This document shows positions 3,517-50,763 of a stretch of DNA of 54,167 nucleotides, piece by piece (the first letter of the stretch is position 1; each line of letters begins with the position of its first letter). The DNA lies in assembly GCA_947041225.1 (NCBI GenBank), contig CAMRDM010000002.1:1-54167 (forward strand), read 5' to 3'. A program made the position numbers and the translations under genes. The notes below the pieces were generated by a model, which made no database searches, was not told where the DNA came from, and saw only the letters and a program-made list of their open reading frames with translations. This DNA comes from an uncultured Deferribacteraceae bacterium. Its GTDB lineage: Bacteria > Chrysiogenota > Deferribacteres > Deferribacterales > Mucispirillaceae.

Positions 3517-3562
3517 AACCTTAAATTCTCCTATAGTAAAATTTCAAACTGAATATTCAAAA

Positions 3563-4402: not shown

Positions 4403-4424
4403 AGTCCTAATTCTCCATTTTTTA

Positions 4425-5051
4425 TTAAAACTTTACACCAACTTCTGTTACAACCATAAAAGTATTTGTTTGTCCATAAAGATTTTGCTCATACGATAAA
4501 CCGAACATAAACTTTTTATAATTTGCTCTTAAACCAATTACACCATAAACATCAAAACCTACAGGTTGAGTTGAGTACTCTTGCTCAACAACCTGAGAAA
4601 GAACGCCTAATATCAAAAAGCCTACACCTATTTTTGGCATAATGCTCCATGATTTATTTATCTCTATATACGGTTGAGCTAAAACAGTGTATTTAAAATT
4701 CAAACTTCTATACTCTGCCTGTATATAATCTATCCCTGCCTCCATAGCAAAATACTTGTTTACCTGCCAACCACCAAGTAGATTAATTGCAAAACCATTA
4801 ACGTAATCTCTATTTTTCATATTAAGACAATTATAATCAAGAATAGAGTTATAACAAGTATATCCTCCTCCACCCATCAGATAAAAAAAACTTACTTTCT
4901 GTTTTTCAGTTTCTAACGCTCTCAGTTTCTTTATCTGTATAACCTCTTCTTGACTAGGTTCTTTTTCACTTATACTCTCATCTGCTAATACAACTGTACT
5001 TGTTAGAAAAGAAAAAAATAAAACAAGTAAGCATAATCTGTAAAACATCAT
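4425..5051 (-). CDS. Outer-membrane beta-barrel-like protein
   Basis: Signal peptide; alternating strands (FFYLMGGGGYTCYN..., GWQVNKYFAMEAGIDYIQAEYR..., GLRANYKKFMFGLSYEQNLYGQTNTFMVVTEVGVKF); terminal aromatic F. Confidence 0.6.
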   Translation of the reverse strand: MMFYRLCLLVLFFSFLTSTVVLADESISEKEPSQEEVIQIKKLRALETEKQKVSFFYLMGGGGYTCYNSILDYNCLNMKNRDYVNGFAINLLGGWQVNKYFAMEAGIDYIQAEYRSLNFKYTVLAQPYIEINKSWSIMPKIGVGFLILGVLSQVVEQEYSTQPVGFDVYGVIGLRANYKKFMFGLSYEQNLYGQTNTFMVVTEVGVKF

Positions 5052-5134
5052 CTTATCTCTCCTTTTTCTAAAAACCCTATTATATTTTATTAATCAAAAC
5101 TATCTTCTCACTACTCTTTCCTACTAAAATATAT

Positions 5135-6987: not shown

Positions 6988-7290
6988 TTATATGCCTAGT
7001 AAATTGAATACCTTATTCGCACTGTTCAACATCTCTAAAGATACACAACCTTCAGAGCTACCTCCATCACAAGCCTTTTTATAAAACTCTTTAGCTTTAC
7101 TTTCATCTTGCTTAACACCATCTCCACTTGCATACATTAAACCAAGCTTATAACAGCTTTTTGCGTTTTTATCCTTACACTCTTCACTATACTTAATAGC
7201 CTCTTTTTTATCTTCTGCGTACGATACAGAAACAGTAACCAACTCCATAAACATAAACATAAATACAAACAAAATCGTTAAAAATTTCAT
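6988..7290 (-). CDS. Short Sel1-repeat exported protein
   Basis: Signal peptide and about 2 Sel1 repeats (SCYKLGLMYASGDGVKQDESKAKEFYKKACDGGSSEGC). Confidence 0.8.
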   Translation of the reverse strand: MKFLTILFVFMFMFMELVTVSVSYAEDKKEAIKYSEECKDKNAKSCYKLGLMYASGDGVKQDESKAKEFYKKACDGGSSEGCVSLEMLNSANKVFNLLGI

Positions 7291-7478
7291 CGCTAAATCC
7301 TCCTCTATAAATTTATAATAAATTATTATATACGAGATGACATAAATTAAAAAGCTAAAAATTGTATTTTAGATAATTAGAAAATAGAGAAACAGATCCT
7401 TTCTACATAGAAAATAAGTACCCAATTATATATTATAAAAATCGAAAAAGTAGTTAAAAAAATATTGTATAAATAAAA

Positions 7479-9605: not shown

Positions 9606-9940
9606 ATGTTGGTACTCATACCTGCCTTAACTGATTGCACAACATTCTCTATTGATGCTAAATATTACCTCGATATCTCGGTTAAATCTGTTGATGATAT
9701 CAAGGTGTCGTTTGATAAGGTAAAATCAAGAATAGGTAATTCTGGATATGTTAAGACTACAAATGAATGTAAGTTTTATCTGGATGAAGATATACTTGCT
9801 AAAGAAAAGGCACAACGATCTAGTTTCCTGTTAATGAGAAGGATTATGCAAATATCCTAAATGATCTAACTGGACGGTTATATATAATCACAGAACCAAA
9901 TAAATATCTCAAAGTTATACGGTACTGTTCTGATCCTTAG
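9606..9940 (+). pseudogene. Probable frameshifted small lipoprotein gene remnant
   Basis: MLVLIPALTDCTTFSID... stops at 9860; a second frame continues ...EKDYANILNDLTGRLYIITEPNKYLKVIRYCSDP* to 9940. Confidence 0.45.
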
Positions 9941-10812: not shown

Positions 10813-10871
10813 AACTTATATTTATAATAAATTTTTCTGCTTTTAAAATTTTAACGCAAATAACCTAAATA

Positions 10872-11255
10872 TTATTTCATCATTTTGTCAGATAATATCT
10901 TTTTAAATTTGCAAGCATTCTCATTACCTAAATCACAACCTTTCTCTGATATATGTAATGCGTTATCGTAATCAACTGCTACACCCTCGCCTATCGCATA
11001 CATCATCGCAAGATTGCCACAACCATCAGGATTATTACCATCACAAGCTTTTGTATAAAACTCAACAGCTCGCTTTGAATTCTTCTCTACACCCTCACCG
11101 TTCGCATATATTAATCCAAGTTCAAAACAACTATTAGTATCACCACTCGTACACTCTTTATCATATTTAGCAACAACCTTGCTATCTGCATACGACACAG
11201 AAACATTAACTAATGCCAGAAACATAAACATAAAAACAACTGTAAAAATTCTCAT
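10872..11255 (-). CDS. Short Sel1-repeat exported protein
   Basis: Signal peptide and 2-3 Sel1 repeats. Confidence 0.85.
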   Translation of the reverse strand: MRIFTVVFMFMFLALVNVSVSYADSKVVAKYDKECTSGDTNSCFELGLIYANGEGVEKNSKRAVEFYTKACDGNNPDGCGNLAMMYAIGEGVAVDYDNALHISEKGCDLGNENACKFKKILSDKMMK

Positions 11256-16728: not shown

Positions 16729-17529
16729 ATGATAGATAATAAACTAATTGATTTTACAAGTTGCGATATAGAAGAGATTAATTCTTACGTTGAATCTATA
16801 TCGAATAAATATAACCTTTCAACTGATAGCATATTAGATACTTTACAGATCATATTAAGTGAAGTTCTCACAGAAGAGTTAGGTTACAAAGTTATTGCTA
16901 AGATGAGTAGCACAACCCTTTCTATTTTTGGATCTATAAATCAACACGGTATAGAGAATGAATTTCAATTATCGTTAAATAATATTAAAAAACATCATAT
17001 CAAAAAAATCTTTCAACTGTTTCTTCAAAAATTATCAGCACAAGAAGAAGAGAAAATTTTAGAAAAATATAAGTATCTAAAAAGATCTATCGTTCAAGGC
17101 AAGATAGTGAAAAAGCATAATAATGAATACCTTGTAAGCATTATCACAAATATAACTGAAGATGAAGAAGTAGAAGTTATAGCTCATTGTAACAAAAACT
17201 CATTTTTTAAAAGTGAAACAGAAGCACTACAACCTAGTGAATTATGGTTTCAAGTAAACAATGTGAAAGTTGAAGAGTATGAAGGCGTATATAGACTAGT
17301 AATAAGTTTAACAAGAAAGAGTATGGAACTTCCTTTACAGTTCATCAAACAAACTGTCAATGATAGCACCTTAAAATTAAAAGCAATGTATCGTGCAAAC
17401 GGTATTTATAAAATAAGAACATCAAGGAAAATTCCTAAATCAACATTAGAGATACTGTACAAAGAATTTAAAGATGAGAAATTTATTTTTAAGTTAGATC
17501 AAAAAACGGTTGGTATTAATAATGGATAA
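16729..17529 (+). CDS. NusA-like protein (N-terminal domain, S1 and KH1-like region)
   Basis: By-eye alignment to NusA: N-terminal SNKYNLSTDSILDTLQIILSEVLTEELGYKV; S1-like QGKIVKKHNNEYLVSI...WFQVNNVKVEEYEGVYRLVISLTRKSMELPLQFIKQ matching NusA ITGVVKKV...[38 protein letters not shown]; then LKLKAMYRANGIYKIRTS. Confidence 0.6.
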   Translation: MIDNKLIDFTSCDIEEINSYVESISNKYNLSTDSILDTLQIILSEVLTEELGYKVIAKMSSTTLSIFGSINQHGIENEFQLSLNNIKKHHIKKIFQLFLQKLSAQEEEKILEKYKYLKRSIVQGKIVKKHNNEYLVSIITNITEDEEVEVIAHCNKNSFFKSETEALQPSELWFQVNNVKVEEYEGVYRLVISLTRKSMELPLQFIKQTVNDSTLKLKAMYRANGIYKIRTSRKIPKSTLEILYKEFKDEKFIFKLDQKTVGINNG

Positions 17530-36691: not shown

Positions 36692-36804
36692 AATATTCAA
36701 TCACAATCTCCCCCTCTTCTCTTCTCTTCTCTCAACCACACAACACACAACCCAACTACATAATCTACAATCTCAAAGAAGTCTTAACACAGCACAAGCT
36801 TTCA

Positions 36805-36853
36805 CTTATTATTTATGAAGGGTTCTACCAAAAAACCCGTAATGAATAATAAG
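36805..36853. repeat. Long imperfect inverted repeat
   Basis: CTTATTATTTATGAAGGGT...ACCCGTAATGAATAATAAG (19-bp arms with a few mismatches). Confidence 0.75.
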
Positions 36854-37186
36854 TAAGATTGAAAGCGATATAGTAACACATAAATGCTTATTACTTGCAT
36901 CGACAACGGTTTAGGTTTTTTACGATCAAAACGTAGTGTAACAAAGTTTTGAGGAAGTGAAAAATCGTTCTTACCTAAAATAAACACTTGCAATATTAAA
37001 ATAACTAGTGTATTTTATAAATATACAATCGCATTTAATTATGTCATCTTCTGCATAGTGCAGAGACAGATCAATTATTATGCTATATTATTATGTTTAG
37101 GACATGATTTTTATAGAGGATGTAATAATTGGTGGCTAAATAGTAGCAATATAAATAGTTTATATTGATTTCCCTACTAATATTAA

Positions 37187-37356: not shown

Positions 37357-37465
37357 ACCCATAGGGTATAATTTTACCCTTATGGGTATTTTTATATCCT
37401 TTTTTAGGTTTTATATAAATAAAAAATAAAATTATGTGAAAAATCACAAAAAAAGGAGATCAATC
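37357..37465 (+). promoter_or_regulatory. Leader element copy 1 (divergent, longest)
   Basis: ACCCATAGGGTATAATTTTACCCTTATGGGT (37357-37387), then TCCTTTTTT...AAAAAAAGGA pairing across the SD. Confidence 0.7.
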
Positions 37466-37963
37466 ATGGCAATGTACACAACAGTAAAAGGTTATATTAA
37501 CAAGGTAGAAGTAAAAAGTTATGTTAGTGGAGTAGAAGCAGATAGCTCAACTAATAAAGCAAGTGGAAAAATGGCAGTAGTAAGTATAGCAATGGCATCT
37601 AAAAGAAAAGATGAGAAAGGAGCATACACTATTAAAGAAAATACTTTCTTTATACGTGCAGTTACCTTTTCTAAAAGTTTAATTGAAAAATTAGATGGAC
37701 AAGAAAAGTTATTTTGCGAGTTATCACTTAAAGCTGAATCAGTTAAAAAAGATGAGAATTACTTTGAAAACTGGTACCTATTAGGATTTACTGATTTAAC
37801 TTTATTAAAAGCACCAGAAGAAGCTACTTCTACAGATACTACAGATATTACTTCAACTGAAATTACTTCTACAGATACTTTTGAAATTACTTCTAGAGAT
37901 ACTTTGTCTGAGGAAGAAAAAGAAAAAATATTATCTGAGTATTTAGCAGGTAATAAGAAATAA
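37466..37963 (+). CDS. SSB-like/OB-fold candidate, paralogue of 39997..40383
   Basis: MAMYTTVKGYINKVEVK...FFIRAVTFSKSLIEKLDGQEKLFCELSLKAESVKKDENYFENWYLLGFTDLTLL; start at MAMYTT after AAAAGGAG. OB-fold assignment by eye. Confidence 0.5.
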   Translation: MAMYTTVKGYINKVEVKSYVSGVEADSSTNKASGKMAVVSIAMASKRKDEKGAYTIKENTFFIRAVTFSKSLIEKLDGQEKLFCELSLKAESVKKDENYFENWYLLGFTDLTLLKAPEEATSTDTTDITSTEITSTDTFEITSRDTLSEEEKEKILSEYLAGNKK

Positions 37964-37969
37964 AAATTT

Positions 37970-37992
37970 AGTGGCTTAGGCCACTTTTTTTT
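37970..37992 (+). terminator. Intrinsic terminator, GTGGC family copy 1
   Basis: AGTGGCTTAGGCCACTTTTTTTT. Confidence 0.85.
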
Positions 37993-38019
37993 AAGTATTT
38001 TAAAATTAAATAAAAACAA

Positions 38020-38094
38020 ACCCTAGAGGGATTATAATTATCCCTTTGGGGTATTTATATATTCTCTTTTAGAGGTAAAAAAGGAGGAATTATT
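38020..38094 (+). promoter_or_regulatory. Leader element copy 2
   Basis: ACCCTAGAGGGATTATAATTATCCCTTTGGGGT (38020-38052); anti-SD hairpin CTCTTTT/AAAAGGAG (38064-38086). Confidence 0.8.
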
Positions 38095-38424
38095 ATGGCA
38101 GTACTTTTTATTAGTAAAACAGAACTTACGGAATGGAATGAAGAAGTAACTTTTTTTAAAGGAATGGTATCTATTAAATGGTATGAGTTACTTTCAGATG
38201 CACTTATATCAATAACGCTACTGTTATCTGTAATAGGAACGATATTTATATTTGGTGAGTTCACTTATATGAGTATTGCTTTTGTAATAACTTGTTGTTT
38301 TTCGTGCGTGTTATTGTTTTGTAGAAAATTACAAAAAAATATACATGAAATTCGTGAATATCGAAAAGATGAAGAACAACTAAAAAATCTCATTAAAGAA
38401 GCAAATATTATGTTGAATAAATAA
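38095..38424 (+). CDS. Small two-TM membrane protein
   Basis: 109 aa; hydrophobic segments ALISITLLLSVIGTIFIFG and MSIAFVITCCFSCVLLFC; strong SD. Confidence 0.75.
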   Translation: MAVLFISKTELTEWNEEVTFFKGMVSIKWYELLSDALISITLLLSVIGTIFIFGEFTYMSIAFVITCCFSCVLLFCRKLQKNIHEIREYRKDEEQLKNLIKEANIMLNK

Positions 38425-38436
38425 AAAACAAACAAA

Positions 38437-38507
38437 CCCTAGAGGGAGTATTTAACTTCCCTTTAGGGCAGTTTTATACTCTCTTTTAGAGGTAGAAAGG
38501 AGACAAT
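38437..38507 (+). promoter_or_regulatory. Leader element copy 3
   Basis: CCCTAGAGGGAGTATTTAACTTCCCTTTAGGG (38437-38468); anti-SD TCTCTTTT/GAAAGGAGA (38480-38503). Confidence 0.8.
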
Positions 38508-38726
38508 ATGAAAAGAGTATTGCAAAAGTTTGACAAAAGCAATATGATAGGACTATTGAGAACTACGAGAGAAATAGCACTTTATGTATTTGTACTTGGT
38601 ATTTTTTTATCAAAAGAAGATATACCTAGTTCTCTAGCATCAATAACGAGTTGTTTAATCATTATTGGTATCTATCTTATAGATCAAGTAGTGATAAATA
38701 TGACTAAGGAGGATGAAAATGGGTAG
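38508..38726 (+). CDS. Small membrane protein A of two-gene mini-operon, copy 1
   Basis: 72 aa; LLRTTREIALYVFVLGIFL shared with 40666..40896. Confidence 0.75.
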   Translation: MKRVLQKFDKSNMIGLLRTTREIALYVFVLGIFLSKEDIPSSLASITSCLIIIGIYLIDQVVINMTKEDENG

Positions 38727-38829
38727 TATGTTTTTAATACTCTCCCTTGTACTTTCTACAATGGGAGCAATCTTAGGATTATATTCATTAAATTACTATG
38801 CTAAAAAAGAGAAGAAAAACAAAGAATAA
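38719..38829 (+). CDS. Micro-membrane protein B of mini-operon, copy 1 (36 aa)
   Basis: MGSMFLILSLVLSTMGAILGLYSLNYYAKKEKKNKE; overlaps the end of gene A; SD AAGGAGGA. Confidence 0.65.
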   Translation: MGSMFLILSLVLSTMGAILGLYSLNYYAKKEKKNKE

Positions 38830-38834
38830 AATTT

Positions 38835-38859
38835 AAGTGGCTTATGCCACTTTTTTTTT
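38835..38859 (+). terminator. Intrinsic terminator, GTGGC family copy 2
   Basis: AAGTGGCTTATGCCACTTTTTTTTT. Confidence 0.85.
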
Positions 38860-38894
38860 AAGTAGTTTTAGAAATTAAATAAAAATAAAAACAA

Positions 38895-38971
38895 ACCCTA
38901 GAGGGATTATAATTATCCTTTTAGGGTATTTTTATATTCTCTTTTAGAGGTAAAAAAACGGAGAGTATATT
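38895..38971 (+). promoter_or_regulatory. Leader element copy 4
   Basis: ACCCTAGAGGGATTATAATTATCCTTTTAGGGT (38895-38927); anti-SD TCTC...GAGA (38938-38964). Confidence 0.8.
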
Positions 38972-39448
38972 ATGTTGAAAAAAATTATTAGAAAAATTAG
39001 AATTAAAAGAGAAGTTAATCAGAATTGGCAAGTTAGATTATTGATAGAATTACTTAAACCTACAGATGTTAATATCAAGCATTACAAAAATCGTTTATCA
39101 CTATTTTTAGTGAAAAATGATTTAAAGATGACTGATTTAAGATTATTGTTTAGTTCATATATCGGCAAGCTTGCATGGTTTGACTTTGATAACACAAATA
39201 ACACAGTAGTAGTAAATATTACGACTAGAGATAGTAATGGTTACAATACTATTACATCAAAAACAGTCGACAGATTATCTATGACTTACTATGTTAAAAA
39301 AGACGAACTAGCGTTAGCAGACGAAACACAAGTTATGTTAGTGGTAGCACAAACAAGACAAATTATTCATGCAGATACTCCTTTTGATGGCAAACTTCTT
39401 AACATTGATGACTATATGTTGCCTACAGGCAAATATTTTAATCGTTAG
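38972..39448 (+). CDS. Hypothetical protein of the cassette region
   Basis: 158-aa ORF with SD and leader. Confidence 0.7.
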   Translation: MLKKIIRKIRIKREVNQNWQVRLLIELLKPTDVNIKHYKNRLSLFLVKNDLKMTDLRLLFSSYIGKLAWFDFDNTNNTVVVNITTRDSNGYNTITSKTVDRLSMTYYVKKDELALADETQVMLVVAQTRQIIHADTPFDGKLLNIDDYMLPTGKYFNR

Positions 39449-39479
39449 AAAACATCAATAAGTATTAACAAATAAAATT

Positions 39480-39505
39480 AAGTGGATTTATCCACTTTTT
39501 TTTTA
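39480..39505 (+). terminator. Intrinsic terminator, variant copy
   Basis: AAGTGGATTTATCCACTTTTTTTTT. Confidence 0.8.
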
Positions 39506-39528
39506 ATTATAACCAAGGAGTTGACATT

Positions 39529-39744
39529 GTGAAAAACATATTTACTAATAAACTAAAAGGAATTATAATAGTTGTATTAGAAAGAATTAGAGATTTTATT
39601 TTTTATGGTCTGTTGTTAGGATTTACAGTAATATTAATTGAGAGTGGAAATTTTACCTTTATAGATATTCTAAAAATGTTTATACTTTTTATATGTACAC
39701 TAATAATAGATATCATAGTAAAATTATACAAGAAGGAGGTTTAG
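39529..39744 (+). CDS. Small membrane protein A, copy 2 (divergent)
   Basis: 71 aa; VLERIRDFIFYGLLLGF aligns with LRTTREIALYVFVLGIF. Confidence 0.65.
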   Translation: MKNIFTNKLKGIIIVVLERIRDFIFYGLLLGFTVILIESGNFTFIDILKMFILFICTLIIDIIVKLYKKEV

Positions 39745-39746
39745 TT

Positions 39747-39857
39747 ATGGATACTTTTTTAAACGTTTTACTAGTTATAGGAGCGATAGGTGTTTTTATA
39801 GCTTTGTTTATCGTTCCTAGACTTCCAGATAATAAAGAGAAACAAGATATTAAATAA
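39747..39857 (+). CDS. Micro-membrane protein B, copy 2 (36 aa)
   Basis: MDTFLNVLLVIGAIGVFIALFIVPRLPDNKEKQDIK; SD AAGGAGG. Confidence 0.65.
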   Translation: MDTFLNVLLVIGAIGVFIALFIVPRLPDNKEKQDIK

Positions 39858-39863
39858 AATTTT

Positions 39864-39888
39864 GAGTGGCTTATGCCACTCTTTTTTT
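39864..39888 (+). terminator. Intrinsic terminator, GTGGC family copy 3
   Basis: GAGTGGCTTATGCCACTCTTTTTTT. Confidence 0.85.
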
Positions 39889-39921
39889 AAGTATTTTTAA
39901 AAATTAAATAAAAACAAACAA

Positions 39922-39996
39922 ACCCTAGAGGGATATTATAAATCCTTTTAGGGTTTTTATATATCCTTTTATGGAAATTAAAAGGAGAAGAAAGAT
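39922..39996 (+). promoter_or_regulatory. Leader element copy 5
   Basis: ACCCTAGAGGGATATTATAAATCCTTTTAGGGT (39922-39954); anti-SD CCTTTT/AAAAGG (39965-39985). Confidence 0.8.
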
Positions 39997-40383
39997 ATGG
40001 CAATGTATACGAAAACACACGGTAGTATTTATAAAGTTGAGTTTAAAATTTCTAGAAATGGTTTGAAGTATGCTGATGTATGTATAAATATCGGAGTATT
40101 TAATAATCCTTTTTTTATCAATGCAAAAGTATATTCTAGGAAAGTTTCTACTCAATTAAAAAACTTTGATTCTAATGCACGTCTTTATTGTAAATTAATT
40201 TTACAATCAGAAGGAGTTGTAAAAGATGATAACTACTATCAGAATTGGACAGTTCTATCACTTGAAAAGATCGATGAGAACACATCATTTAACTCGTATA
40301 TGGAGAATGAAGAATTAATTAACGAAACAAACAATATCCCTACTCTACAATTTGAAAGTAAGGATATGGTCTATTTCTGTTGA
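39997..40383 (+). CDS. SSB-like/OB-fold candidate, paralogue of 37466..37963
   Basis: MAMYTKTHGSIYKVEFK...LYCKLILQSEGVVKDDNYYQNWTVLSLEKI parallels MAMYTTVKGYINKVEVK...LFCELSLKAESVKKDENYFENWYLLGFTDL. Confidence 0.55.
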   Translation: MAMYTKTHGSIYKVEFKISRNGLKYADVCINIGVFNNPFFINAKVYSRKVSTQLKNFDSNARLYCKLILQSEGVVKDDNYYQNWTVLSLEKIDENTSFNSYMENEELINETNNIPTLQFESKDMVYFC

Positions 40384-40417
40384 TTATTAGTATTAAAATT
40401 TAAATAAATAAACATAA

Positions 40418-40489
40418 ACCCTAGAGGGAGTATTTAACTTCCCCTAGGGTAGTTTTATATCTCCTCCTAGCAGTTTAAAGGAGACGTTT
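40418..40489 (+). promoter_or_regulatory. Leader element copy 6
   Basis: ACCCTAGAGGGAGTATTTAACTTCCCCTAGGGT (40418-40450); anti-SD TCTCCT/AGGAGA (40460-40484). Confidence 0.8.
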
Positions 40490-40669
40490 ATGAACACAAA
40501 AAAACTCAATGCTTTACTAAGTAGGTATCAACTTACTTGTTGCGAAGTAGAAACTCTTATTGAAAAAAGAATTCTATCAGTACAAGGCAAGTTGTTATCG
40601 ACTGAAACAGTCATGCTCACAACTCTTAGATATCTAAGAAATGAAATAGCCGTAAAGGAGGCAGTATGA
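40490..40669 (+). CDS. 59-aa small protein
   Basis: MNTKKLNALLSRYQLTCCEVETLIEKRILSVQGKLLSTETVMLTTLRYLRNEIAVKEAV; ATGA overlap with the next gene. Confidence 0.65.
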   Translation: MNTKKLNALLSRYQLTCCEVETLIEKRILSVQGKLLSTETVMLTTLRYLRNEIAVKEAV

Positions 40670-40896
40670 AAACTATTAAGCAGTTCTTTACAAGTATAAA
40701 TAAAAAATATACAATGGCTGTGTTAAAGACGACAAGAGAGATGGTCTTATATGTAGTAGTATTAGGTATATTCTTAACAGGTGGTAGACAAAGTTTGTTA
40801 TCTGTTATTGCGATAATACTCGGCGTAACATTTGTCTATCTGATTGATATAGGCATTATAAAGAACCAATTAAAAAATGAGAAGGAGGATAGTTAA
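40666..40896 (+). CDS. Small membrane protein A, copy 3
   Basis: VLKTTREMVLYVVVLGIFL near-identical to the copy 1 motif. Confidence 0.75.
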   Translation: MKTIKQFFTSINKKYTMAVLKTTREMVLYVVVLGIFLTGGRQSLLSVIAIILGVTFVYLIDIGIIKNQLKNEKEDS

Positions 40897-41012
40897 TGAA
40901 TAGTGTATTAACTTTTGCAGTGATTTTTGGTTTTATAGGAGCTTCATTTGCTATCTATACTGGATTTTTCTGCACCGACGAAGATAAGAAGAAGAAAGAT
41001 AACAAGAAATAA
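40896..41012 (+). CDS. Micro-membrane protein B, copy 3 (38 aa)
   Basis: MNSVLTFAVIFGFIGASFAIYTGFFCTDEDKKKKDNKK; SD AAGGAGG. Confidence 0.65.
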   Translation: MNSVLTFAVIFGFIGASFAIYTGFFCTDEDKKKKDNKK

Positions 41013-41017
41013 ATTTT

Positions 41018-41043
41018 GAGTGGCTCATGCCACTCTTTTTTTT
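41018..41043 (+). terminator. Intrinsic terminator, GTGGC family copy 4
   Basis: GAGTGGCTCATGCCACTCTTTTTTTT. Confidence 0.85.
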
Positions 41044-41085
41044 AACCAGTTTCTATATTCAAACATATAGATATGCATTAAATCA

Positions 41086-41157
41086 GCCCTGTGGGATACA
41101 AACCCATATGGGCTTTTTTGTATCCTCGTACGGCAACAAAATTAAGAGGATAATAAT
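41086..41157 (+). promoter_or_regulatory. Leader element copy 7
   Basis: GCCCTGTGGGATACAAACCCATATGGGC + TTTTTT (41086-41119); anti-SD TATCCTC/GAGGATA (41121-41152). Confidence 0.75.
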
Positions 41158-41622
41158 ATGAAAAAGAAAAAAGTTACAGAATGGTGTTCGCATTGTGATA
41201 GAGAGGTAAAGATACACGGAGATAGAATTTCTAAATGTCCTTACTGCAAAACCAGTATACGCCCTTGTATGCTATGCGATATGGATATTGTAGATTGTAA
41301 TGATTGCAAATTCGATAAAGCAATAGAAGTACTAAAAAAAGAATTGTTCATTGCTGTAGAGAGAAACCTAATCGAACTGATAAAAGCAACACATTACAGT
41401 GGTTTTGATTTAAACATCAATAATCAATATAACGAAAGTTTATTATGTGTAGCAATCCAAAAAGGAAATGTTGAGATAGTCGATTTCTTAATTAGCAGTG
41501 GAGCAGTAGTTAATACTACAAATAGAAATAATAAAAGCCTATTAGAAATAGCATCATTCATGTGTACGTTAGGTAAAGAACAGATATTAATTCACGATGC
41601 TTTAATTAGAGCTGGTGCATAA
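41158..41622 (+). CDS. Zinc-ribbon plus ankyrin-repeat protein
   Basis: CSHCDREV...CPYCKTSIRPCMLCDMDIVDCNDC, then ankyrin-like NESLLCVAIQKGNVEIVDFLISSGAVVNTTNRNNKSLLEIA. Confidence 0.7.
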   Translation: MKKKKVTEWCSHCDREVKIHGDRISKCPYCKTSIRPCMLCDMDIVDCNDCKFDKAIEVLKKELFIAVERNLIELIKATHYSGFDLNINNQYNESLLCVAIQKGNVEIVDFLISSGAVVNTTNRNNKSLLEIASFMCTLGKEQILIHDALIRAGA

Positions 41623-41681
41623 AAAATAGTATATGAAAAAGTAGTAAGTTAATGAGCAGTAAATAAAAATTAAAATAAAAA

Positions 41682-41747
41682 CCCTATGGGATATAAAACT
41701 CCCTATAGGGATAATTTTATACTCTCTTAGAGGTTCTAGGAGATTCT
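41682..41747 (+). promoter_or_regulatory. Leader element copy 8
   Basis: CCCTATGGGATATAAAACTCCCTATAGGG (41682-41710); anti-SD TCTCTTAG/CTAGGAGA (41723-41743). Confidence 0.8.
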
Positions 41748-42809
41748 ATGTCAAGATTAGCAAGTCAAACAAAAATGGGTTTCTACCCTACCCCACCAAC
41801 CGTAGTTAATGATATCACATCTATCATCGCTTTAAATAGTGGAGCAAGAATTCTTGATCCATGTTGTGGTAAAGGCGATGCTTTAGCGTATATCAAAACT
41901 ATGTATCCAGCAATAACTACATATGGAGTAGAGTTAGATGCTAACAGATATCAATTAGCAAAAGAAAAATTAGATCATGTTTTAAACTGTGATTCAATAG
42001 GAGAACTTAGAGCGACAAATGATGCATTTGATGTCCTCTTTGAGAACCCTCCGTACGATACAGATATGAAAGATATTGATGGTACAACTATAAGATTAGA
42101 GAAAAAATTTCTAACAAATCATCTAAGATATCTTAAAAGTGAAGGAGGATTATTGATCCTTATTATCCCTATAACAAGTGTAGAGATAGTAAAAGGTTTT
42201 CTCACTAAACTTAAAGACCTTAGAATATTTGCATTTCCTGAAGAAGAGTATTTATACTTTAAGCAGGTTGTGATTACAGGAGTTACTACAAGATTTTCTG
42301 GTAAACAAAATTACGATAAAAACTCTCTACTGATAGATAAAGTTATTTACAATACAGATCATAAACACGCATACAGAGATTTAGAAACAACCTCGAATGC
42401 CGTACTAAATGGAGTGCTTTATAATATAACTGATGATAAAAGAGAAGAGTTAAAAACATTTCATACAAGTAGAATTAATCCAGACGATGCAATTATGGAT
42501 TTAACGAAACTATCAGGACTATATGAACAATTAAATGGTAATCTTTCACTTGCAAACAGATCGAAAGTAATCACTCCTCTAACCGAATTAACTGAAGGAC
42601 ATTTAGCAATGCTAATAGCCTCAGGTATGGTGAATGGATTGATTGAAACTCATGACGGTGAGCAGTTAGTTTTAAAAGGTTATGTAAAAGAAGGTATGTA
42701 TGTAGATATCGAAGCTAGTGATGACACTAAAGAGGTATTTAGGAAAACTTATCAAATTAATATCAATGCGTTAGACTTAAATACTGGCTCATTATGGAGG
42801 ATACAGTAA
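41748..42809 (+). CDS. DNA N6-adenine methyltransferase-like protein (DUF6094-like)
   Basis: GFYPTPPTVV, RILDPCCGKGDALAYI (SAM motif I), VLFENPPYD (motif IV). Confidence 0.75.
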   Translation: MSRLASQTKMGFYPTPPTVVNDITSIIALNSGARILDPCCGKGDALAYIKTMYPAITTYGVELDANRYQLAKEKLDHVLNCDSIGELRATNDAFDVLFENPPYDTDMKDIDGTTIRLEKKFLTNHLRYLKSEGGLLILIIPITSVEIVKGFLTKLKDLRIFAFPEEEYLYFKQVVITGVTTRFSGKQNYDKNSLLIDKVIYNTDHKHAYRDLETTSNAVLNGVLYNITDDKREELKTFHTSRINPDDAIMDLTKLSGLYEQLNGNLSLANRSKVITPLTELTEGHLAMLIASGMVNGLIETHDGEQLVLKGYVKEGMYVDIEASDDTKEVFRKTYQININALDLNTGSLWRIQ

Positions 42810-43357
42810 TGGATTTAAAATATATCGAAGCTAGTTATCAAGGGATAAACGTATATGTAAACAAGTTAATATGTTCTGAAAAGAAAACACCTATGATGTT
42901 ATCAGTATTTGGTAATCTCGATCTTGTGAAAGCATTTTCAGCAGCATTTATTAGCGATAACAAAGTATATATCAATGGTAATAGTGCCTACAGAGGAAAA
43001 AGTACTTATCGTTTTTTACAGCAGAAAGTCAAAAACTCTTTAGGCCATGCGATTATTTATGCTGAAGAGTATTTCTCGCCCTATCACCTAAAAACACAAT
43101 TTATTGCATACGGAAATACAGAGGAAGAAATGAAACAACGTATATGGGAAATTCTCAGTTTAAAGTGTAATATCCCTATGCTTGAAAGTTGGATCAATTA
43201 CCTACTCCCTTATATCGATCAAGTTAATCTTGTATCTAGTGGGTTCGGTTTTAATCATGTTTCAATGATCACTCTTCCAAATGATGATGAACTGTATGCA
43301 GTAATAAAAAACAATCTTAACGAATTAAAAAGAATAGAGGATAAACAAAAATTATGA
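42794..43357 (+). CDS. Hypothetical protein between methyltransferase and helicase
   Basis: 187-aa ORF overlapping both neighbours. Confidence 0.7.
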   Translation: MEDTVMDLKYIEASYQGINVYVNKLICSEKKTPMMLSVFGNLDLVKAFSAAFISDNKVYINGNSAYRGKSTYRFLQQKVKNSLGHAIIYAEEYFSPYHLKTQFIAYGNTEEEMKQRIWEILSLKCNIPMLESWINYLLPYIDQVNLVSSGFGFNHVSMITLPNDDELYAVIKNNLNELKRIEDKQKL

Positions 43358-45636
43358 ATATAGAAAAAGTAAATAATAGTAATGATAGTGAAAACATTAT
43401 CTCACTCACAGATTTTTTAGTGAGGTATGGAGAGACAATTAAGTCTAAAGTATTAGATCAACTTGATCCTGTTTTTCAACAAAACAATCTTGATGATTTT
43501 GATCATAATGCTATGAATAAATTAGGTAGAGTATCAACTCGTAAACCTTTTCAAGCTCAAGCAAAAACTGTATTAGCCTTAAATAAAGGTTTCTATAAGA
43601 AAGATAAAAAGAGTTTGATATTGGTTGGAGAGATGGGAAGTGGTAAAACTTTAATGGCTATAAACGTAGCCTCATTGATACCTAAAAAGAATTGTAGGGT
43701 ATTAATTATCTGTCCAGGGCATTTAGTTAAAAAATGGAAAAGAGAGATTATATCTACAGATAAAAATCATGGAGAGATTCGTATCCTTTATAAAATATCG
43801 GATATCAATCTTGAAGCTCCGATCGGCAGAGAGTATTGGATCCTCGGTAAAGAGAAAGCTAAACTGCATTACAGTACTAAAAAAGTTTATCATTACAGTC
43901 GACGAAAAGGTATCTGTTGTCCATCATGCTATAAACCACTTGATGAAGAAGAGAAAGAAGCAAATAAATGTAGTAAAAAAAAATGTGGATCAAAATTCAC
44001 AACTGCTGATAATACTAAGTTTAGAAGATTTGCTTTAGCAGATTATATTAGACGCAAAAAGAATTTATGTAGAATTGAAATGTTGATAGCTGATGAAGTT
44101 CATGAACTTAAAGGTGGCGATACGGCACAAGGCCAGGCCTTTCATGCACTTTGTGTAGCTAGCAATAAAACCTTAGCATTAACTGGTACGCTTATGGGTG
44201 GTTATGCTAGTAATTTATATTACTTATTATTTAGAATGTTTAGTAAAAAATTTATTGAGAGAGGATATAAACATAACTCTTCAAGTAAGTTCTCTACAGA
44301 CTTTGGTGTGATCGAAGAAGTTGTCGAACAGAAAGTTCTAAACGATAGAATTGCATCACTTGCAAAAGTTAAACAGACTAGAAAGATAAAAGAGAAGCCT
44401 GGAATATCTCCCCTACTCTTGCCAGAGTTTTTATTAGAGAACACTGTGTATGTGTGGGTATCAGATATATCTGACGCGTTGCCAAGCTATGAAGAATCTG
44501 TAGAGATCGTTCCGATGACTGATGAACAATCACATGTGTATAAGTTATTTGAGAGAGATCTACAACGTGTCGTATATGAGGCGTTAGCGAAAAGAGATAA
44601 CAGATTATTAGGAGCGTTAGTCAATTCATTATTCGCATTACCTGATGGAGCAAGACGTGGAGAGATGGTGTTTGATCCTGATGCAAAAGCATTTGGCGTG
44701 GAACAAGTGTTGTGTTCAGCCGAACCTTTGTATCTCGACATATTGCCTAAGGAAGAAAAATTAATTGAACTTGTCTTAGAGGAGAAATCTAAAGGACGTA
44801 AAGTTGCTATCTTTTTAGAGCATACTGGAACTAGGGATTTAATCCCTGATTTAGAGGAACGCTTATCAAGAAATGGCATTACTGCTTTAGTTTTACGATC
44901 AACTACTGTACCCACTGATAAACGTGAGGAGTGGTTGACGAAGAATATCGAAAGTGAAAATCCTGATGTTTTAATCTGTAATCCAAGCTTAGTAAAAACT
45001 GGTTTAGACCTGCTTAGTTTTCCAACTATAATCTATTTTCAAGTTGGCTTTAATGTGTATACGTTGAGACAATCATCAAGACGAAGTTGGAGAATTGGAC
45101 AGACTCAAGATGTTAAGGTTATATACCTTGCATACTCGAACACAGCACAGAGCAGAGCTTTGAACCTGATAGCTAACAAGCTAGAAACATCGAACGCAGT
45201 TGAGGGTAAATTCTCAGCTGATGGATTAACAAAAATGAGTTCATCATCAGACTCTTCATTATTGTTTGCACTAGCTAAAGAGCTTGTCGGCAATAAGAGT
45301 GTCAATGATAATGAGATCAAGAGAAATTTTGCAAAGTATCGAAGTAGTGAAAGTGTACAAGACAGAAGTCTGGCCACTTCTGATACTTATGTAGAGGATC
45401 AATTCAAAGAGTTGTACAATAAGGTTTTCACGATCATATCGCCTTATCGTGCAGAAGAAGACAACGCTGTTATTTGTGAAAGTGATAGTGTAAGTAGTGT
45501 TGAGATTAGTGATCTACAGAGTGATACAGTTTCTATATGTAAGGAGAAGAAGTCCACGAATTTTCTAGCAAAAGCGAGTATGTTATTTGACAACAATCGC
45601 CAGCTTACAGTAGAGGATTTCTTGTCGTTGTGTTAG
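43354..45636 (+). CDS. SNF2-like SF2 helicase with inserted zinc-binding segment
   Basis: Walker A LVGEMGSGKTLMAIN, DEVH box IADEVHELKGG, LALTGTLMGG, QSSRRSWRIGQTQDVKVIYL; CCPSC...CSKKKC insertion. Confidence 0.85.
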   Translation: MNIEKVNNSNDSENIISLTDFLVRYGETIKSKVLDQLDPVFQQNNLDDFDHNAMNKLGRVSTRKPFQAQAKTVLALNKGFYKKDKKSLILVGEMGSGKTLMAINVASLIPKKNCRVLIICPGHLVKKWKREIISTDKNHGEIRILYKISDINLEAPIGREYWILGKEKAKLHYSTKKVYHYSRRKGICCPSCYKPLDEEEKEANKCSKKKCGSKFTTADNTKFRRFALADYIRRKKNLCRIEMLIADEVHELKGGDTAQGQAFHALCVASNKTLALTGTLMGGYASNLYYLLFRMFSKKFIERGYKHNSSSKFSTDFGVIEEVVEQKVLNDRIASLAKVKQTRKIKEKPGISPLLLPEFLLENTVYVWVSDISDALPSYEESVEIVPMTDEQSHVYKLFERDLQRVVYEALAKRDNRLLGALVNSLFALPDGARRGEMVFDPDAKAFGVEQVLCSAEPLYLDILPKEEKLIELVLEEKSKGRKVAIFLEHTGTRDLIPDLEERLSRNGITALVLRSTTVPTDKREEWLTKNIESENPDVLICNPSLVKTGLDLLSFPTIIYFQVGFNVYTLRQSSRRSWRIGQTQDVKVIYLAYSNTAQSRALNLIANKLETSNAVEGKFSADGLTKMSSSSDSSLLFALAKELVGNKSVNDNEIKRNFAKYRSSESVQDRSLATSDTYVEDQFKELYNKVFTIISPYRAEEDNAVICESDSVSSVEISDLQSDTVSICKEKKSTNFLAKASMLFDNNRQLTVEDFLSLC

Positions 45637-45822: not shown

Positions 45823-46428
45823 TTATTCGCATTTCTCAAAGAATATTTTTTGCAGTTTGCAAATGTCCTCATCTAATTCTATATAATGTATTAGTTCATC
45901 TCGTGTAAGGAGGTATCTCATCTGTGCCAACCTTTTTTTATTATTAATCAACTCCATTATTTTCCAAATTTCTAGTATAGGTCTCATGTCAAATTTAAAT
46001 GCTATTTCACACATATATTTCCCTACATTTGTATGATGTTTAATATTTCCATCCTTATCTCTGCTTAAATGATTATCATATTCATTTGAGGCTGGATCAA
46101 CAAATCCTTCATTACTGTTATTATGGAGATTACTATCATTCGTAGGCCACTTACTGCTTTTCTTTCTGTTACATGTAAAACAAGAATATACTAAATTTGA
46201 ATAACTATTTTTCATCCCTATATTTACTTTTTGAGGAACAAAGTGATCTATTTCAAACCCTTTTGTTGTTACCATTTCTGATTTACCACAATAACCACAT
46301 ATATAATGAAAGTCATTTCTTAGCTCATTAAGATAATCTTTATAATTAGGTTTCAAAGGTACGTCAAGACTTCTGTTAATTATATATTCACCATGTATTC
46401 TCATAATATTATTTTCTCTTTTCAGCAT
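45823..46428 (-). CDS. HNH endonuclease
   Basis: ICGYCGKSEMVTTKGFEIDHFVPQKV...NLVYSCFTCNRKKSSKWP. Confidence 0.85.
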   Translation of the reverse strand: MLKRENNIMRIHGEYIINRSLDVPLKPNYKDYLNELRNDFHYICGYCGKSEMVTTKGFEIDHFVPQKVNIGMKNSYSNLVYSCFTCNRKKSSKWPTNDSNLHNNSNEGFVDPASNEYDNHLSRDKDGNIKHHTNVGKYMCEIAFKFDMRPILEIWKIMELINNKKRLAQMRYLLTRDELIHYIELDEDICKLQKIFFEKCE

Positions 46429-47041
46429 TTTTAATTATATTATTTGTCTTTTCTATCAACTCATCTAGAGTTTTTTGAACTTCACTTTTTAGAAGTTCAA
46501 CTGGAATATCATCTACTTCTCTATATGCTCGTAGTAGTTTAAACAAATCAATAAGTCGTTCCTCTTCTATTGCTGAAATTTTGAGTTGTCTTTTTTTACC
46601 AAGTAATTCTCTATATTCGTCAGTATGTTTTTTCAACCTCTTATCAAAAACATTAACAGCTTGTTTAATTTTTTTTACAAAATTTTCGTACATATCATTT
46701 GTAAAAACATCTCTATCAATAATTAAATTTGTAATTACAACATTTTCATATATTGAGTCTTCAGTGAAGCTAGTTATTATAAAACATGGCAAATCAGGTA
46801 TTTTCATATTAATAGAGTATACTAATTCTGTTCCTAAAAAATCAAACTTGTTCTTTAGTTTATAATCTACCATCATACATTTTATATTACTGGACAAAAT
46901 CCAATCTACTACTTCATCCATTGAAAAGCAACCACTTGGATATAATAACTCCATGCCCTCTTTTTTAAAGAGTTTTTTGTAACTTTCAAAGGTTGTTTTA
47001 TCATCGTCAATATATCCAATAGTATACATTATGTTCTCCAT
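46409..47041 (-). CDS. Response-regulator receiver-like protein
   Basis: IGYIDDDKTTFESYKKLF, CMMVDYKL (phosphoacceptor position), CFIITSF; the usual conserved Lys is not evident (LIIDRDVF). Confidence 0.6.
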   Translation of the reverse strand: MENIMYTIGYIDDDKTTFESYKKLFKKEGMELLYPSGCFSMDEVVDWILSSNIKCMMVDYKLKNKFDFLGTELVYSINMKIPDLPCFIITSFTEDSIYENVVITNLIIDRDVFTNDMYENFVKKIKQAVNVFDKRLKKHTDEYRELLGKKRQLKISAIEEERLIDLFKLLRAYREVDDIPVELLKSEVQKTLDELIEKTNNIIKNAEKRK

Positions 47042-47044
47042 ATT

Positions 47045-49318
47045 TTATTTTTTTGTTAATTTTATAGTAATATAGAAACCAAAAGCATGTTTCATATTTT
47101 CAGATAGATCAATACTTCCATCATACTCAGACACAGTTTTATCTATAATCCACATTCCCATGCCTGTACCAATTGTTTCACCACTATCATTTTTTTTATC
47201 ACTTTCCATTGGTTCTAATATCTTCCTTGGAGTTTCTCTGTAGGCAGGAGGTAATCCTTTGCCAGAATCACAATAAATAATAGTAATATCATTTTTAGAA
47301 TCTAAAATTTTAATATTGATTTTTTTTTCTTTTATATAATTAAATTGAAACATATTAACACTATTTGCAATCAAATTAGTTAAAATACTCTCTATATCAT
47401 AAGGAAAACATTTTAATTCAATTTCATTATTACTAAAACATAAATCAATATCAATATCTGGAAGTACCGCTTTCCATGAACTTACAATTTTTGATATGAG
47501 GTGGTTTAAATTTGTTTTATTTTGAGTTCTTTTATCACGTGATATAGAACCTAGTGTTACTTTAAACCATGAACTTAATGATTCACGTTTTTTATTTGCT
47601 TCTTCTATATATTCTAATCCAGCATTTAAGTCTTGATCAGCATCAAGAGCATTCTTTGCCATAATAATATTTAGACTTAACTTATGTGTAATGTCTTTTA
47701 TCTCATGGATGTAAGTATTGGTAACAATACCTGTTGTTGCTAAGGTTCTCAATAGTCTGTTTTCATCTTCTAAATCTTTAATTTGAGAGTCTTTATTATC
47801 TAATGCAATTTTAGCTCTTTCAGGATCTATAAAGTTCTCAGTAGATTGACTAGTATCTAGGTTCGAATTTTTGTTACGCTCTTTATCCATCCTAGACTCT
47901 TCAGCTTTCTCATTGATTTCTATTTGTATTTTTTCATGTTCATGTGTGTCATCGTATAGCTTTCTTAACTTACGAAAAACATATTGTCTATCTCTTTCCA
48001 ATTCTCCTATTATTTTAAGAAGAAATTCTTTCAGTAAGACAAATTCTCTATTTTCAATAATACCTTCTCTATTAGACTGATCCTCCAGATTCCTATTGAG
48101 TCGTGATATTAAAACGGATCCGATAACTTGATTAGCATTAACACGCCATTTTCCTGTTGGATGAGAAGGTGCTGCTGGAGATTCATTACGCCTATTAGAA
48201 AGTAATAACCAATCATAATTAGGAGTATTTAAATCTCCATAAGGTCTAACTCTAAAGCTATCTCTATAAATTTTTATACCATTAAAAATATTATTTTTAT
48301 TGTTTGTTATTAAAGGTTTATAGAAGTATTTTTCTAGATCTTGTTTATTTCTACCACCTTTTTCAAAATAGAAAGCTCCATTGAAATTTCCTATTGTATT
48401 TTCGATTTCTAACTCGCGATTAGGTAGTACTTTGTCAAATGAGGTATCAATGATTATTACCTCACCATTGAAATACTGCTCATCTTGTTTTGTAAATCCA
48501 CCACCTTTCATGATTTCTTTAAATTTATCGCCAAAGTCAAATTCATTTCTATGTAATTCAATATGAGTTTTGCCATCTTCTTTCACATCAAATTCTATCT
48601 TATAGTCGTACGGAAAATCATCTGTAGCACTTAATACCTCGGCATCATTTAGAGCCGTTTCTTCATCAAAAAAATATACTTGAAATACGTTTTTCATTTC
48701 ATAAGGAATTAAGGTAGTTAGATCTTCTTTAATTTTACCTATAGTGCTCTTATCCCAAACATCTCTTAAGTTCGTTAACTTGAAGATAGTACCTGTTCCT
48801 GATTTTTTAATCTTCTTTAATAAGAACTTTTTAACTTCATCATTATTAACTTCTTCAAGAAAATCATCTATTGATATTGGCGGTACATACAACTCTGCTG
48901 TTACATCTGTAATGTTTTTACTTTTTGAAAAATCTTCCCATTCTACTTCCCAAATTAATTTCCCTGCTTCTGATAACGTATACATCGCACATGTATCAGA
49001 TATCCTATCTAAAGCAAATCTACCAATACCCTTTGCCCCTGTTTGCACTCTACCACTATTACTTTTGAAATTTGTGGTTTTTGTTGAACGTCCTATCGTC
49101 ATCCAGTTGTCTGTTATAACATCTTCTGACATACCTGAACCATTATCTGCTATATAAAGAGAATTAGTAGCTGCTTCATAATATAGAATACAAACCTTAG
49201 CATCTGCATCATAAGTATTTTTAACTAACTCAATAATTGCACCATTTAGTTTTGCAACATTTTCTCTTCCAATTAATCGAGCAGTAGAAGCATCAACATT
49301 GAATGGAATTTTTGACAT
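47045..49318 (-). CDS. Dual-GHKL ATPase: N-terminal Hsp90/MORC-like ATPase plus C-terminal histidine-kinase-like module
   Basis: First GHKL: ELVKNTYDADAK / DNGSGMSEDVI / GAKGIGRFALDRIS. Second: H-box-like YIHEIKDITHKLSLNI, N-box NLIANSVNMF, DSGKGLPP, GTGMGMWIID. Confidence 0.8.
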   Translation of the reverse strand: MSKIPFNVDASTARLIGRENVAKLNGAIIELVKNTYDADAKVCILYYEAATNSLYIADNGSGMSEDVITDNWMTIGRSTKTTNFKSNSGRVQTGAKGIGRFALDRISDTCAMYTLSEAGKLIWEVEWEDFSKSKNITDVTAELYVPPISIDDFLEEVNNDEVKKFLLKKIKKSGTGTIFKLTNLRDVWDKSTIGKIKEDLTTLIPYEMKNVFQVYFFDEETALNDAEVLSATDDFPYDYKIEFDVKEDGKTHIELHRNEFDFGDKFKEIMKGGGFTKQDEQYFNGEVIIIDTSFDKVLPNRELEIENTIGNFNGAFYFEKGGRNKQDLEKYFYKPLITNNKNNIFNGIKIYRDSFRVRPYGDLNTPNYDWLLLSNRRNESPAAPSHPTGKWRVNANQVIGSVLISRLNRNLEDQSNREGIIENREFVLLKEFLLKIIGELERDRQYVFRKLRKLYDDTHEHEKIQIEINEKAEESRMDKERNKNSNLDTSQSTENFIDPERAKIALDNKDSQIKDLEDENRLLRTLATTGIVTNTYIHEIKDITHKLSLNIIMAKNALDADQDLNAGLEYIEEANKKRESLSSWFKVTLGSISRDKRTQNKTNLNHLISKIVSSWKAVLPDIDIDLCFSNNEIELKCFPYDIESILTNLIANSVNMFQFNYIKEKKINIKILDSKNDITIIYCDSGKGLPPAYRETPRKILEPMESDKKNDSGETIGTGMGMWIIDKTVSEYDGSIDLSENMKHAFGFYITIKLTKK

Positions 49319-49335
49319 AGTATCGCTCCGTTTTG

Positions 49336-50763
49336 TTATTTAGTGTATGTGAAATTATTTATATCGCTTGTGGTAATTCGCATTGTACTGCCACTGCCGT
49401 TGATACCTATAGCATATACATATTCTAAAAACTCATTACTCTTTAAAATTTCCTCTGCATAACCAATTGACAAACCACTTTTAGGGTATATACATATTCC
49501 AGCATAAGGAATCTGATTTTTTAAAAGATGACATGTTTTAACTTTATCTGTTATTAAAGTAGATATCAATAACTTTTCTTGATTTAGATGTAGTAACGCC
49601 TGAGACCTTCCATATTCAAACCATTTTGTACTGGCATCATTATCACGTTTATTTAGCTCTGTAATAAATGAACGCAAATATTTGGTTGCTTCAGGAAATT
49701 GCTCTATAAACTCTTTTTCACCATAACGTAGTAGTTGATTTTGTTTATTATACGAATATGGAAAAATCAGTAATTCTTTTCTTTTATATGTCAAAGAACG
49801 AGGACTAATAGCTTCTCTTAATAACTTATTTTCAATTTTATATCCATCCAATACAACATATTTACCTTGTTGAGAATATTCATTAAATATAAAGACTCTA
49901 TTCAACAATGTTGCAATTGGATACCGTGCATGAAAATCATCTCCAAACCTTCTTTTAATAACTGTAATATTTTTGCTTTTTTCCCTAAAAACCCATTTAT
50001 TAGTCAAATCATTTTTTGACAACTGTATTTTGCGATTATTTACTACTTCTTTATAGTATATCTTTTTATTATGCCGTAAACCTTCACAAATAATAATTGC
50101 AGAAGATGTTAGTTTATTTTTAAAGAGTTTTTCTGTTGTATAGTCGATGATTTTGCTTAGATAGGGTAATATAAATATTCGTAATTTATCAGCAAATCTA
50201 TTTTTAAATATATTATTTGGAATCAGATAAGCTAGCCTGCCATCTTCGGATAACATTTTTATTGATAATTCAATAAAAGCATAGTAGTAATCAGGCGTTC
50301 CTTTTGAACACACTTTGAAATTTTCTTTAAGAAATTTTCTTGTTGCTATGTCTAGATTTCTATATGTTATGTAAGGTGGATTACCAATAATAAACTGGAA
50401 CTTCTCTGGAATAGGATTATGTAAAATATCAGTTTGTAGAATATTCCATTTCACGCCATATATATTATACTTACCAGTAACTTCATTCAGATTATCTATA
50501 CATGTTTTTTTATGTTTCTCATCTATCTCTGCACCATAGATATCTTGTTCAAGCCCATATATAATTTTATCATTAGTAAATTTTCTATTTAAACAATCTT
50601 TTATGTATCGATTTACTATCTCGACAAGGAAAGAGCCATCACCACATGAGTTTTCTAAAACTTTTTTACCATATAAATCGTCTTTATAGTTTACTTGATT
50701 CAACACTTCAATTACAATTTTAGGAGGAGTAAAAACTTGGCAATTTCCATTAATAAAACTCAT
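49336..50763 (-). CDS. N6-adenine DNA methyltransferase (Eco57I/TaqI-like)
   Basis: VFTPPKIVIEVL, VLENSCGDGSFLVEIV (motif I), FIIGNPPYITYR (motif IV), C-terminal specificity-like region. Confidence 0.85.
   Translation of the reverse strand: MSFINGNCQVFTPPKIVIEVLNQVNYKDDLYGKKVLENSCGDGSFLVEIVNRYIKDCLNRKFTNDKIIYGLEQDIYGAEIDEKHKKTCIDNLNEVTGKYNIYGVKWNILQTDILHNPIPEKFQFIIGNPPYITYRNLDIATRKFLKENFKVCSKGTPDYYYAFIELSIKMLSEDGRLAYLIPNNIFKNRFADKLRIFILPYLSKIIDYTTEKLFKNKLTSSAIIICEGLRHNKKIYYKEVVNNRKIQLSKNDLTNKWVFREKSKNITVIKRRFGDDFHARYPIATLLNRVFIFNEYSQQGKYVVLDGYKIENKLLREAISPRSLTYKRKELLIFPYSYNKQNQLLRYGEKEFIEQFPEATKYLRSFITELNKRDNDASTKWFEYGRSQALLHLNQEKLLISTLITDKVKTCHLLKNQIPYAGICIYPKSGLSIGYAEEILKSNEFLEYVYAIGINGSGSTMRITTSDINNFTYTK

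Follow-up and report, generated by a model that had tools for sequence, protein, structure and literature searches.

A two-hairpin leader repeated eight times on a mobile element is a probable translational switch

Why do eight genes or gene groups on a mobile element each start behind the same folded leader? The question is raised by a 54,167-nucleotide stretch of contig CAMRDM010000002.1 from an uncultured Deferribacteraceae bacterium (hereafter the window), in which eight two-hairpin leaders lie on the plus strand at 37357-41747, each directly 5' of one of eight start codons. The original prediction described a two-part leader, a paired CCC..GGG motif followed by a stem against the Shine-Dalgarno (SD) sequence, and left open whether the first part is an RNA hairpin or a pair of DNA operators around a -10 box. 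All eight copies were present where it had placed them, their second stem pairs with the SD, and the variant sequences quoted as evidence of kept pairing were correct. We consider it likely that each copy is an mRNA 5' leader acting in cis as a translational switch with two mutually exclusive folds.

Every leader carries five modules in the order A (CCC..GGG), B (loop), C (CCC..GGG), D (CU-rich, anti-SD) and E (SD region). In the eight window copies, A and C form hairpin 1 (10-14 pairs, -14 to -21 kcal/mol), and hairpin 2 is formed by D and E, pairing the CU-rich segment with the SD in all eight. Copy 1 (37357-37465, start codon 37466) has A at 37357-37368, C at 37375-37387, D from 37397 and E/SD to 37457, its hairpin 2 being branched and longer (37397-37457). 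Copy 2 (38020-38094, start codon 38095) has A at 38020-38032, C at 38040-38052, D at 38062-38070 and E/SD at 38080-38088, and copy 3 (38436-38507, start codon 38508) has them at 38437-38448, 38457-38468, 38480-38487 and 38496-38503. The same four segments occupy 38895-38907, 38915-38927, 38933-38946 and 38951-38969 in copy 4 (38895-38971, start codon 38972), and 39921-39934, 39942-39955, 39964-39971 and 39979-39986 in copy 5 (39922-39996, start codon 39997). They are found at 40418-40431, 40437-40450, 40460-40465 and 40479-40484 in copy 6 (40418-40489, start codon 40490), at 41085-41095, 41103-41114, 41121-41127 and 41146-41152 in copy 7 (41086-41157, start codon 41158), and at 41682-41691, 41700-41710, 41723-41731 and 41735-41743 in copy 8 (41681-41747, start codon 41748). 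A covariance model of the first hairpin recovered exactly these eight in the whole genome, other matches being weak or on the mirror strand, and the same eight in G003, a second genome of the genus and a nearly identical relative (its methyltransferase is 99% identical). The leaders are more stable than their dinucleotide shuffles (mean z -4.05), and for any copy at most 2 of 200 shuffles were as low.

The two hairpins stand, but as a complete description the two-part architecture overlooked a third pairing: A together with loop B is complementary to D (A-B:D). Copy 7 has a perfect 9-nt complement (GGATACAAA/TTTGTATCC). In copy 3, where the two folds are no more than 2 kcal/mol apart, the complement of CCCTAGAGGGAGTATTTAAC with GTTTTATACTCTCTTTTAGAGG is already preferred when folding stops at the start codon. 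Because A-B:D is incompatible with full A:C and D:E, the leader has one fold in which the SD is hidden and one in which it is free.

The same architecture occurs on other elements. Relatives of the copy 8 DUF6094 methyltransferase, 44-45% identical to it, occur in G013 and G018, which belong to two other families of the order, and upstream of these relatives lie leader arrays of unrelated sequence with the same plan. In one G013 leader (ACCCCTAACGGGGGCAGTTGTCCCCGTTAGGGGGATAACTGTCTCC...GAAGGAGGCAGTTATG), D (AACTGTCTCC) pairs both with E (GGAGGCAGTT) and with A-B (GGGGGCAGTT). A contig scan with the methyltransferase gave only two loci, and relatives were therefore sought by whole-genome and plasmid searches. 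R2, a covariance model built from 25 leaders, located arrays in two more genomes, G026 and G042 (the latter a complete chromosome); like those in G013 (about 14 copies) and G018 (11 copies), they stand at start codons on Deferribacterota elements. It also located an array on the Malaciobacter mytili plasmid pAMYT (NZ_CP031220.1, L113; Campylobacterota), which carries up to 20 leaders, and arrays in conjugative elements of Pseudomonas aeruginosa and Vibrio scophthalmi (pVS127). A conjugative Shewanella plasmid carries two leaders, and Pseudomonas veronii and Stutzerimonas elements several. On pAMYT, the end of 10 of 11 sense-strand model matches coincides exactly with an annotated start codon, and the same is true of all four in the P. 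aeruginosa element. Several other plasmids, serving as a negative control, gave no match to R2, and weak matches on Manganitrophus, Alicyclobacillus, Thermus and Thermoanaerobacterium plasmids, some of them of different appearance, were left out of the count.

Covariation was scored on 25 leaders from three elements. Both helices had 83.6% of cells paired, compared with 51-60% after sliding, and a covariation score of 0.402 against 0.14-0.17 slid and 0.19 shuffled, with none of 500 shuffles as high; this alignment was made to fit the structure, with padding or trimming of some loops, and is therefore biased in favor of the result, a bias that the slid and shuffled controls reduce and do not remove. 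For the D:E helix in the same alignment, 80% of cells were paired and two-sided changes occurred at 8 of 11 pairs. The original prediction had proposed a covariance-model search and a covariation test; the leader was found on other elements, and the score was above all shuffles.

These data separate the two readings it had left open. An RNA hairpin is upheld by the covariation of both helices, by an architecture kept in unrelated sequence, by a fixed sense-strand site ending at the start codon and by the pairing of D:E with the SD. The operator reading, in which two CCC..GGG palindromes around a -10 box bind a regulator, draws on arms that are each near-palindromic by themselves and on a TATAAT-like loop in several window copies. 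However, the loops of copy 7 and of the relatives have no -10 box (relatives have, for example, GCAGTTG), so that a promoter within the loop fails there, and the spacing between the hairpin 1 arms varies from 12 to 29. The arm centers covary and pair with each other, the leaders occupy the sense strand only, and many relatives begin 5-24 nt past a stop codon, which leaves no space for a promoter; sigma-70-like sites are not commoner than in shuffles. We therefore regard DNA operators as highly improbable.

A further reading, that hairpin 1 is a transcription terminator read through under some condition, finds a T-rich stretch with a terminator-like score after hairpin 1 in four to five window copies. 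At 31% G+C, however, such tails come cheaply in the window, and G013, G018, pVS127 and the Pseudomonas elements have no T run there but GGGGATAACTG-like or other sequence. The hairpin with U run that defines an intrinsic-terminator attenuator is thus confined to the AT-rich window and absent in relatives, and the pairing of D:E with the SD would be purposeless; an attenuator is very unlikely. We give scarcely any credence to intercistronic hairpins for RNA processing, stability or insulation, as an RNase site or 5' stabilizer. A 5' hairpin can stabilize an mRNA, and many copies are intercistronic, but this reading leaves both the D:E helix at the SD and the SD-like copy in A-B unexplained.

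What then points to a switch is the specificity of the third pairing. For each helix the pairing energy of own partners was compared with that of swapped partners within each array, by permutation. A:C was own-partner specific in the window (p = 3e-4), G013 (0/20000) and G018 (5e-5), and D:E in G013 (5e-5) and G018 (0.0024), with a borderline value in the window (0.054). A-B:D gave p = 0.0019 in the window and 0/20000 in both G013 and G018. A second parse covered eight arrays, in whose selection A-B:D played no role, and seven of them were own-partner specific: the window (0.0095), G013 (0/20000), G018 (0/20000), G026 (0.042), pAMYT (0.0008), the P. aeruginosa element (0.0013) and pVS127 (0.016). 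The positions of the leaders, their three complementarities, the covariation of these and their conservation in other elements are direct observations. Two features expected of a translational switch are at hand, a helix sequestering the SD (D:E, in all eight window copies) and, in silico, an exclusive helix releasing it (A-B:D).

In constrained folding of 29 leaders, the fold with A:C and D:E (fold 1) was favored over the fold with A-B:D (fold 2) by a mean of 6.8 kcal/mol (range -19.4 to +1.7) and was the more stable one in 27. When the first 10 nt were masked, the mean difference fell to -1.7 and about half of the leaders showed a clear opening of the SD. When all genes were compared over the same 125-nt frame, mean SD accessibility was 0.23 for the eight leader genes and 0.46 for 36 other genes. 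The modeled energies suggest a default-off state that is released by occupation of the 5' half of A. In the proposed mechanism, fold 1 would conceal the SD and keep translation off; it is the more stable fold of most copies and is likely to be the first to form as the RNA is made, which makes off the expected default. In fold 2, A-B would act as a decoy copy of the SD region and capture D while C closes on itself, leaving the SD free and translation on. Fold 2 would be favored by whatever keeps C from pairing with the 5' half of A. We infer from these observations that switching occurs in cells, as well as its direction, its trigger and the host range of the mechanism. An H-type pseudoknot, with loop B pairing to D while A:C stays closed, was rejected: complementarity of the loop by itself is weak, a linker of 2-9 nt seems insufficient to bridge a 12-13 bp stem, and the exclusive A-B:D helix is preferred.

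Candidate openers differ between elements. Where a stop codon is near, a ribosome terminating just upstream could occupy A; most leaders in G013 and G018 begin 5-24 nt past the stop codon of the preceding gene, within such a ribosome's reach. In the window, the predicted set of eight transcription units is in doubt for copy 3, which has a stop codon just 12 nt or so ahead of it. Copies 2, 4, 5 and 7 probably do head units of their own, as each begins 35-51 nt past the stem of an intrinsic terminator on the plus strand (37970-37985, 38835-38852, 39864-39881 and 41018-41035, respectively). Another terminator of this repeated type, the fifth, lies at 39480-39497 ahead of genes (39529-39857) that lack such a leader. 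On pAMYT, many leaders lie 100-700 nt from any stop codon. These gaps and the window terminators indicate that a terminating ribosome could trigger some copies at most. A trans-acting factor is another possible opener. No conserved aptamer-like core was seen in the leaders, and almost nothing precedes A in the window and G018.

In Pseudomonas, the opener may be the radC RNA domain directly upstream. Using the Rfam covariance model for radC RNA (RF01754) with a membership threshold of at least 40 bits, three were identified in the P. aeruginosa element (77-97 bits) and five more in the P. veronii and Stutzerimonas elements; they lie at 7273-7410, 9786-9935 and 10866-11013 (minus strand) in L130, 5360-5505 and 5983-6130 in L152, and 4625-4768, 5985-6130 and 9797-9935 in L153. 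All eight are followed within about 30 nt on their 3' side by a leader of the window type, six recognized by R2 and two (L130 7273, L152 5983) by inspection. The RNA lies upstream of the leader and is distinct from it. It was not found in the window genome, G003, G013, G018, G026, G042, pAMYT or pVS127. According to Weinberg et al. 2010 (PMC2864571), radC RNA is found in Proteobacteria and is probably cis-regulatory, its riboswitch status being undecided. Like the leader, it is a cis-regulatory RNA ahead of mobile-element genes, in Proteobacteria, but its model covers a separate upstream structure of 149 positions. As every one of the eight sits directly 5' of a leader, the leader may be its unmodeled expression platform. 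In the simplest view, a radC domain has been added in Pseudomonas to a leader that is a platform in its own right.

Several results weigh against the proposed switch and bear on its nearest rival, static translational repression, in which the hairpins do no more than dampen translation or depend on a different opening step, and the likeness of A-B to the SD region has another cause (for example, C and D arising by duplication). The G042 array (n = 4) showed no A-B:D specificity (p = 0.29). Most A-B:D pairs sit on D bases that also pair with E, so part of the signal means only that A-B resembles E, and for A-B:D pairs outside the D:E segment a significant advantage over swapped partners was confined to G013 and G026. 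From the sequences, A-B in most arrays is best put as a matched copy of E. Fold 1 is up to 19 kcal/mol more stable in some copies, which would need strong help or never switch, and the SD accessibility ranges of leader genes and other genes overlap. Coupling to a terminating ribosome is ruled out as the sole trigger by the terminators and long gaps described above, and no trans-acting protein common to the leader-bearing elements was found. The protein encoded at 16729-17529, considered as a common regulator, was not detected in the other elements. The predominance of fold 1 and the restriction of specific outside pairs to two arrays would suit static repression. A static repressor, however, would not need A-B to prefer its own D in seven of the eight arrays, whose sequences are unrelated, nor long A-B:D helices that run past E, as some do in G018 (for example ATCGGGGGCAGGC/GCCTGCCTCCGAT). 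We consider static repression unlikely and favor the switch with two exclusive folds.

The closest known mechanism is that of the ermC/cat-type translational attenuators, in which segments pair exclusively as 1:2 and 3:4 or in an alternative arrangement, with the SD in the last segment and opening by occupation of the first. The leader shares the exclusive pairings, the terminal SD and, in the proposed mechanism, opening via the first segment. It differs in that segment 1 plus the loop (A-B), rather than segment 2, captures segment 3, and in its occurrence in 8-20 copies per element. No conserved leader peptide was found, and none was seen for window copies 2, 4, 5 and 7. The leader mechanism groups with the translational attenuators; new are the number of copies per element, the SD decoy inside the first hairpin and the spread over phyla.

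Frpo-type promoters act as DNA in transcription, with a long imperfect hairpin bearing the -35 and -10. These single-stranded DNA promoters of plasmid leading regions (PMC11541004, PMC9849209) resemble the leader as repeated hairpins on conjugative DNA, possibly for early genes. A leader stem of 10-14 pairs, however, lacks the length to hold a -35/-10 pair, and the leader pairs with the SD through its 3' half. The STAXI motif (PMC2864571) is likewise a structured element near genes for single-stranded DNA binding, antirestriction and integrase, but consists of tandem pseudoknots. In Rfam 15, no family scored above its gathering score for the leader (window region, L053, L055, L113 and L090), and the literature searched yielded no description of it. 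The original prediction that the element is no known riboswitch therefore holds, with the addition that it follows radC RNA in Pseudomonas.

The genes behind the leaders fit the establishment and maintenance of a mobile element. Across elements they include DUF6094 methyltransferases, a single-stranded DNA-binding protein (SSB) with a RadC-like protein (G018, read by eye), RecT and DnaN (pAMYT) and STY4534-type replication proteins (Pseudomonas). The most likely function is default-off translational control of such genes, and the eight leaders would place eight gene groups under shared post-transcriptional control. Placement of the block agrees with the predicted regulon of the mobile element; no shared regulator was found. 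The leader design looks like a widespread, uncatalogued translational timing control on mobile elements, present in at least two phyla beyond that of the window. A broader proposal is tentative and in our view doubtful: that mobile elements in at least three phyla use the leader as a general expression platform of a post-transcriptional regulon, driven by interchangeable upstream sensors (terminating ribosome, radC RNA domain or element-encoded factor), with one signal, such as entry into a new cell, opening 8-20 gene groups together. Conjugative elements are thought to be governed mainly by transcription factors. If the switch is real, a repeated RNA element ahead of many early and maintenance genes would add a layer of control unseen by annotation pipelines and Rfam, kept across phyla despite completely changed sequence, and the orphan radC RNA would gain a likely output and a direct functional test. 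Well-studied hosts, Pseudomonas and Vibrio among them, harbor elements with the leader.

Plasmid pAMYT is 170 kb in size, carries RecT, an exonuclease, DnaN and several cytosine methyltransferases, and may be a phage-plasmid. Its loci 15351, 22250 and 35947 have identical leaders.

In the window, all genes behind the leaders are on the plus strand. Copy 1 precedes a 165-aa gene without family match (37466-37963) and copy 5 a 128-aa gene (39997-40383) that is 33% identical to it over 109 aa (E 2e-15); the two are paralogues of no known family. Copy 2 is followed by a 109-aa gene with no family match above the cut-off (38095-38424), copy 3 by two small genes of 72 and 38 aa (38508-38829) and copy 4 by a 158-aa gene without family match (38972-39448). 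Behind copy 6 lie genes of 59, 76 and 38 aa (40490-41012), behind copy 7 a 154-aa ankyrin-repeat gene (41158-41622), and behind copy 8 the DUF6094 methyltransferase, a 187-aa protein and an SNF2-type helicase (41748-45636).

The leader block lies distal to an F-type conjugation cluster (coupling protein, TraC, TrbI/TraB, TraV, DsbC-like protein and TraG) and begins just past an endonuclease I gene and an inverted repeat at 36804-36854. This repeat, which separates the endonuclease I gene from the first leader, has 21-nt arms that are 86% complementary and is a possible oriT, in which case the leader block would be the leading region. The gene at 16729-17529, one of the early ones in the conjugation block, has a 266-aa product that resembles the RNA-binding part of NusA weakly but significantly (E 4.4e-7, scoring far under the cut-off), and it has a 77% identical homologue in G003 only. 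On the minus strand at 45823-50763, an HNH nuclease (PtuB-like matches), a receiver-like protein, a GHKL-type ATPase and a type II methyltransferase adjoin one another, possibly as a defense or restriction module. Five clustered genes with Sel1 repeats occupy 625-6214, also on the minus strand.

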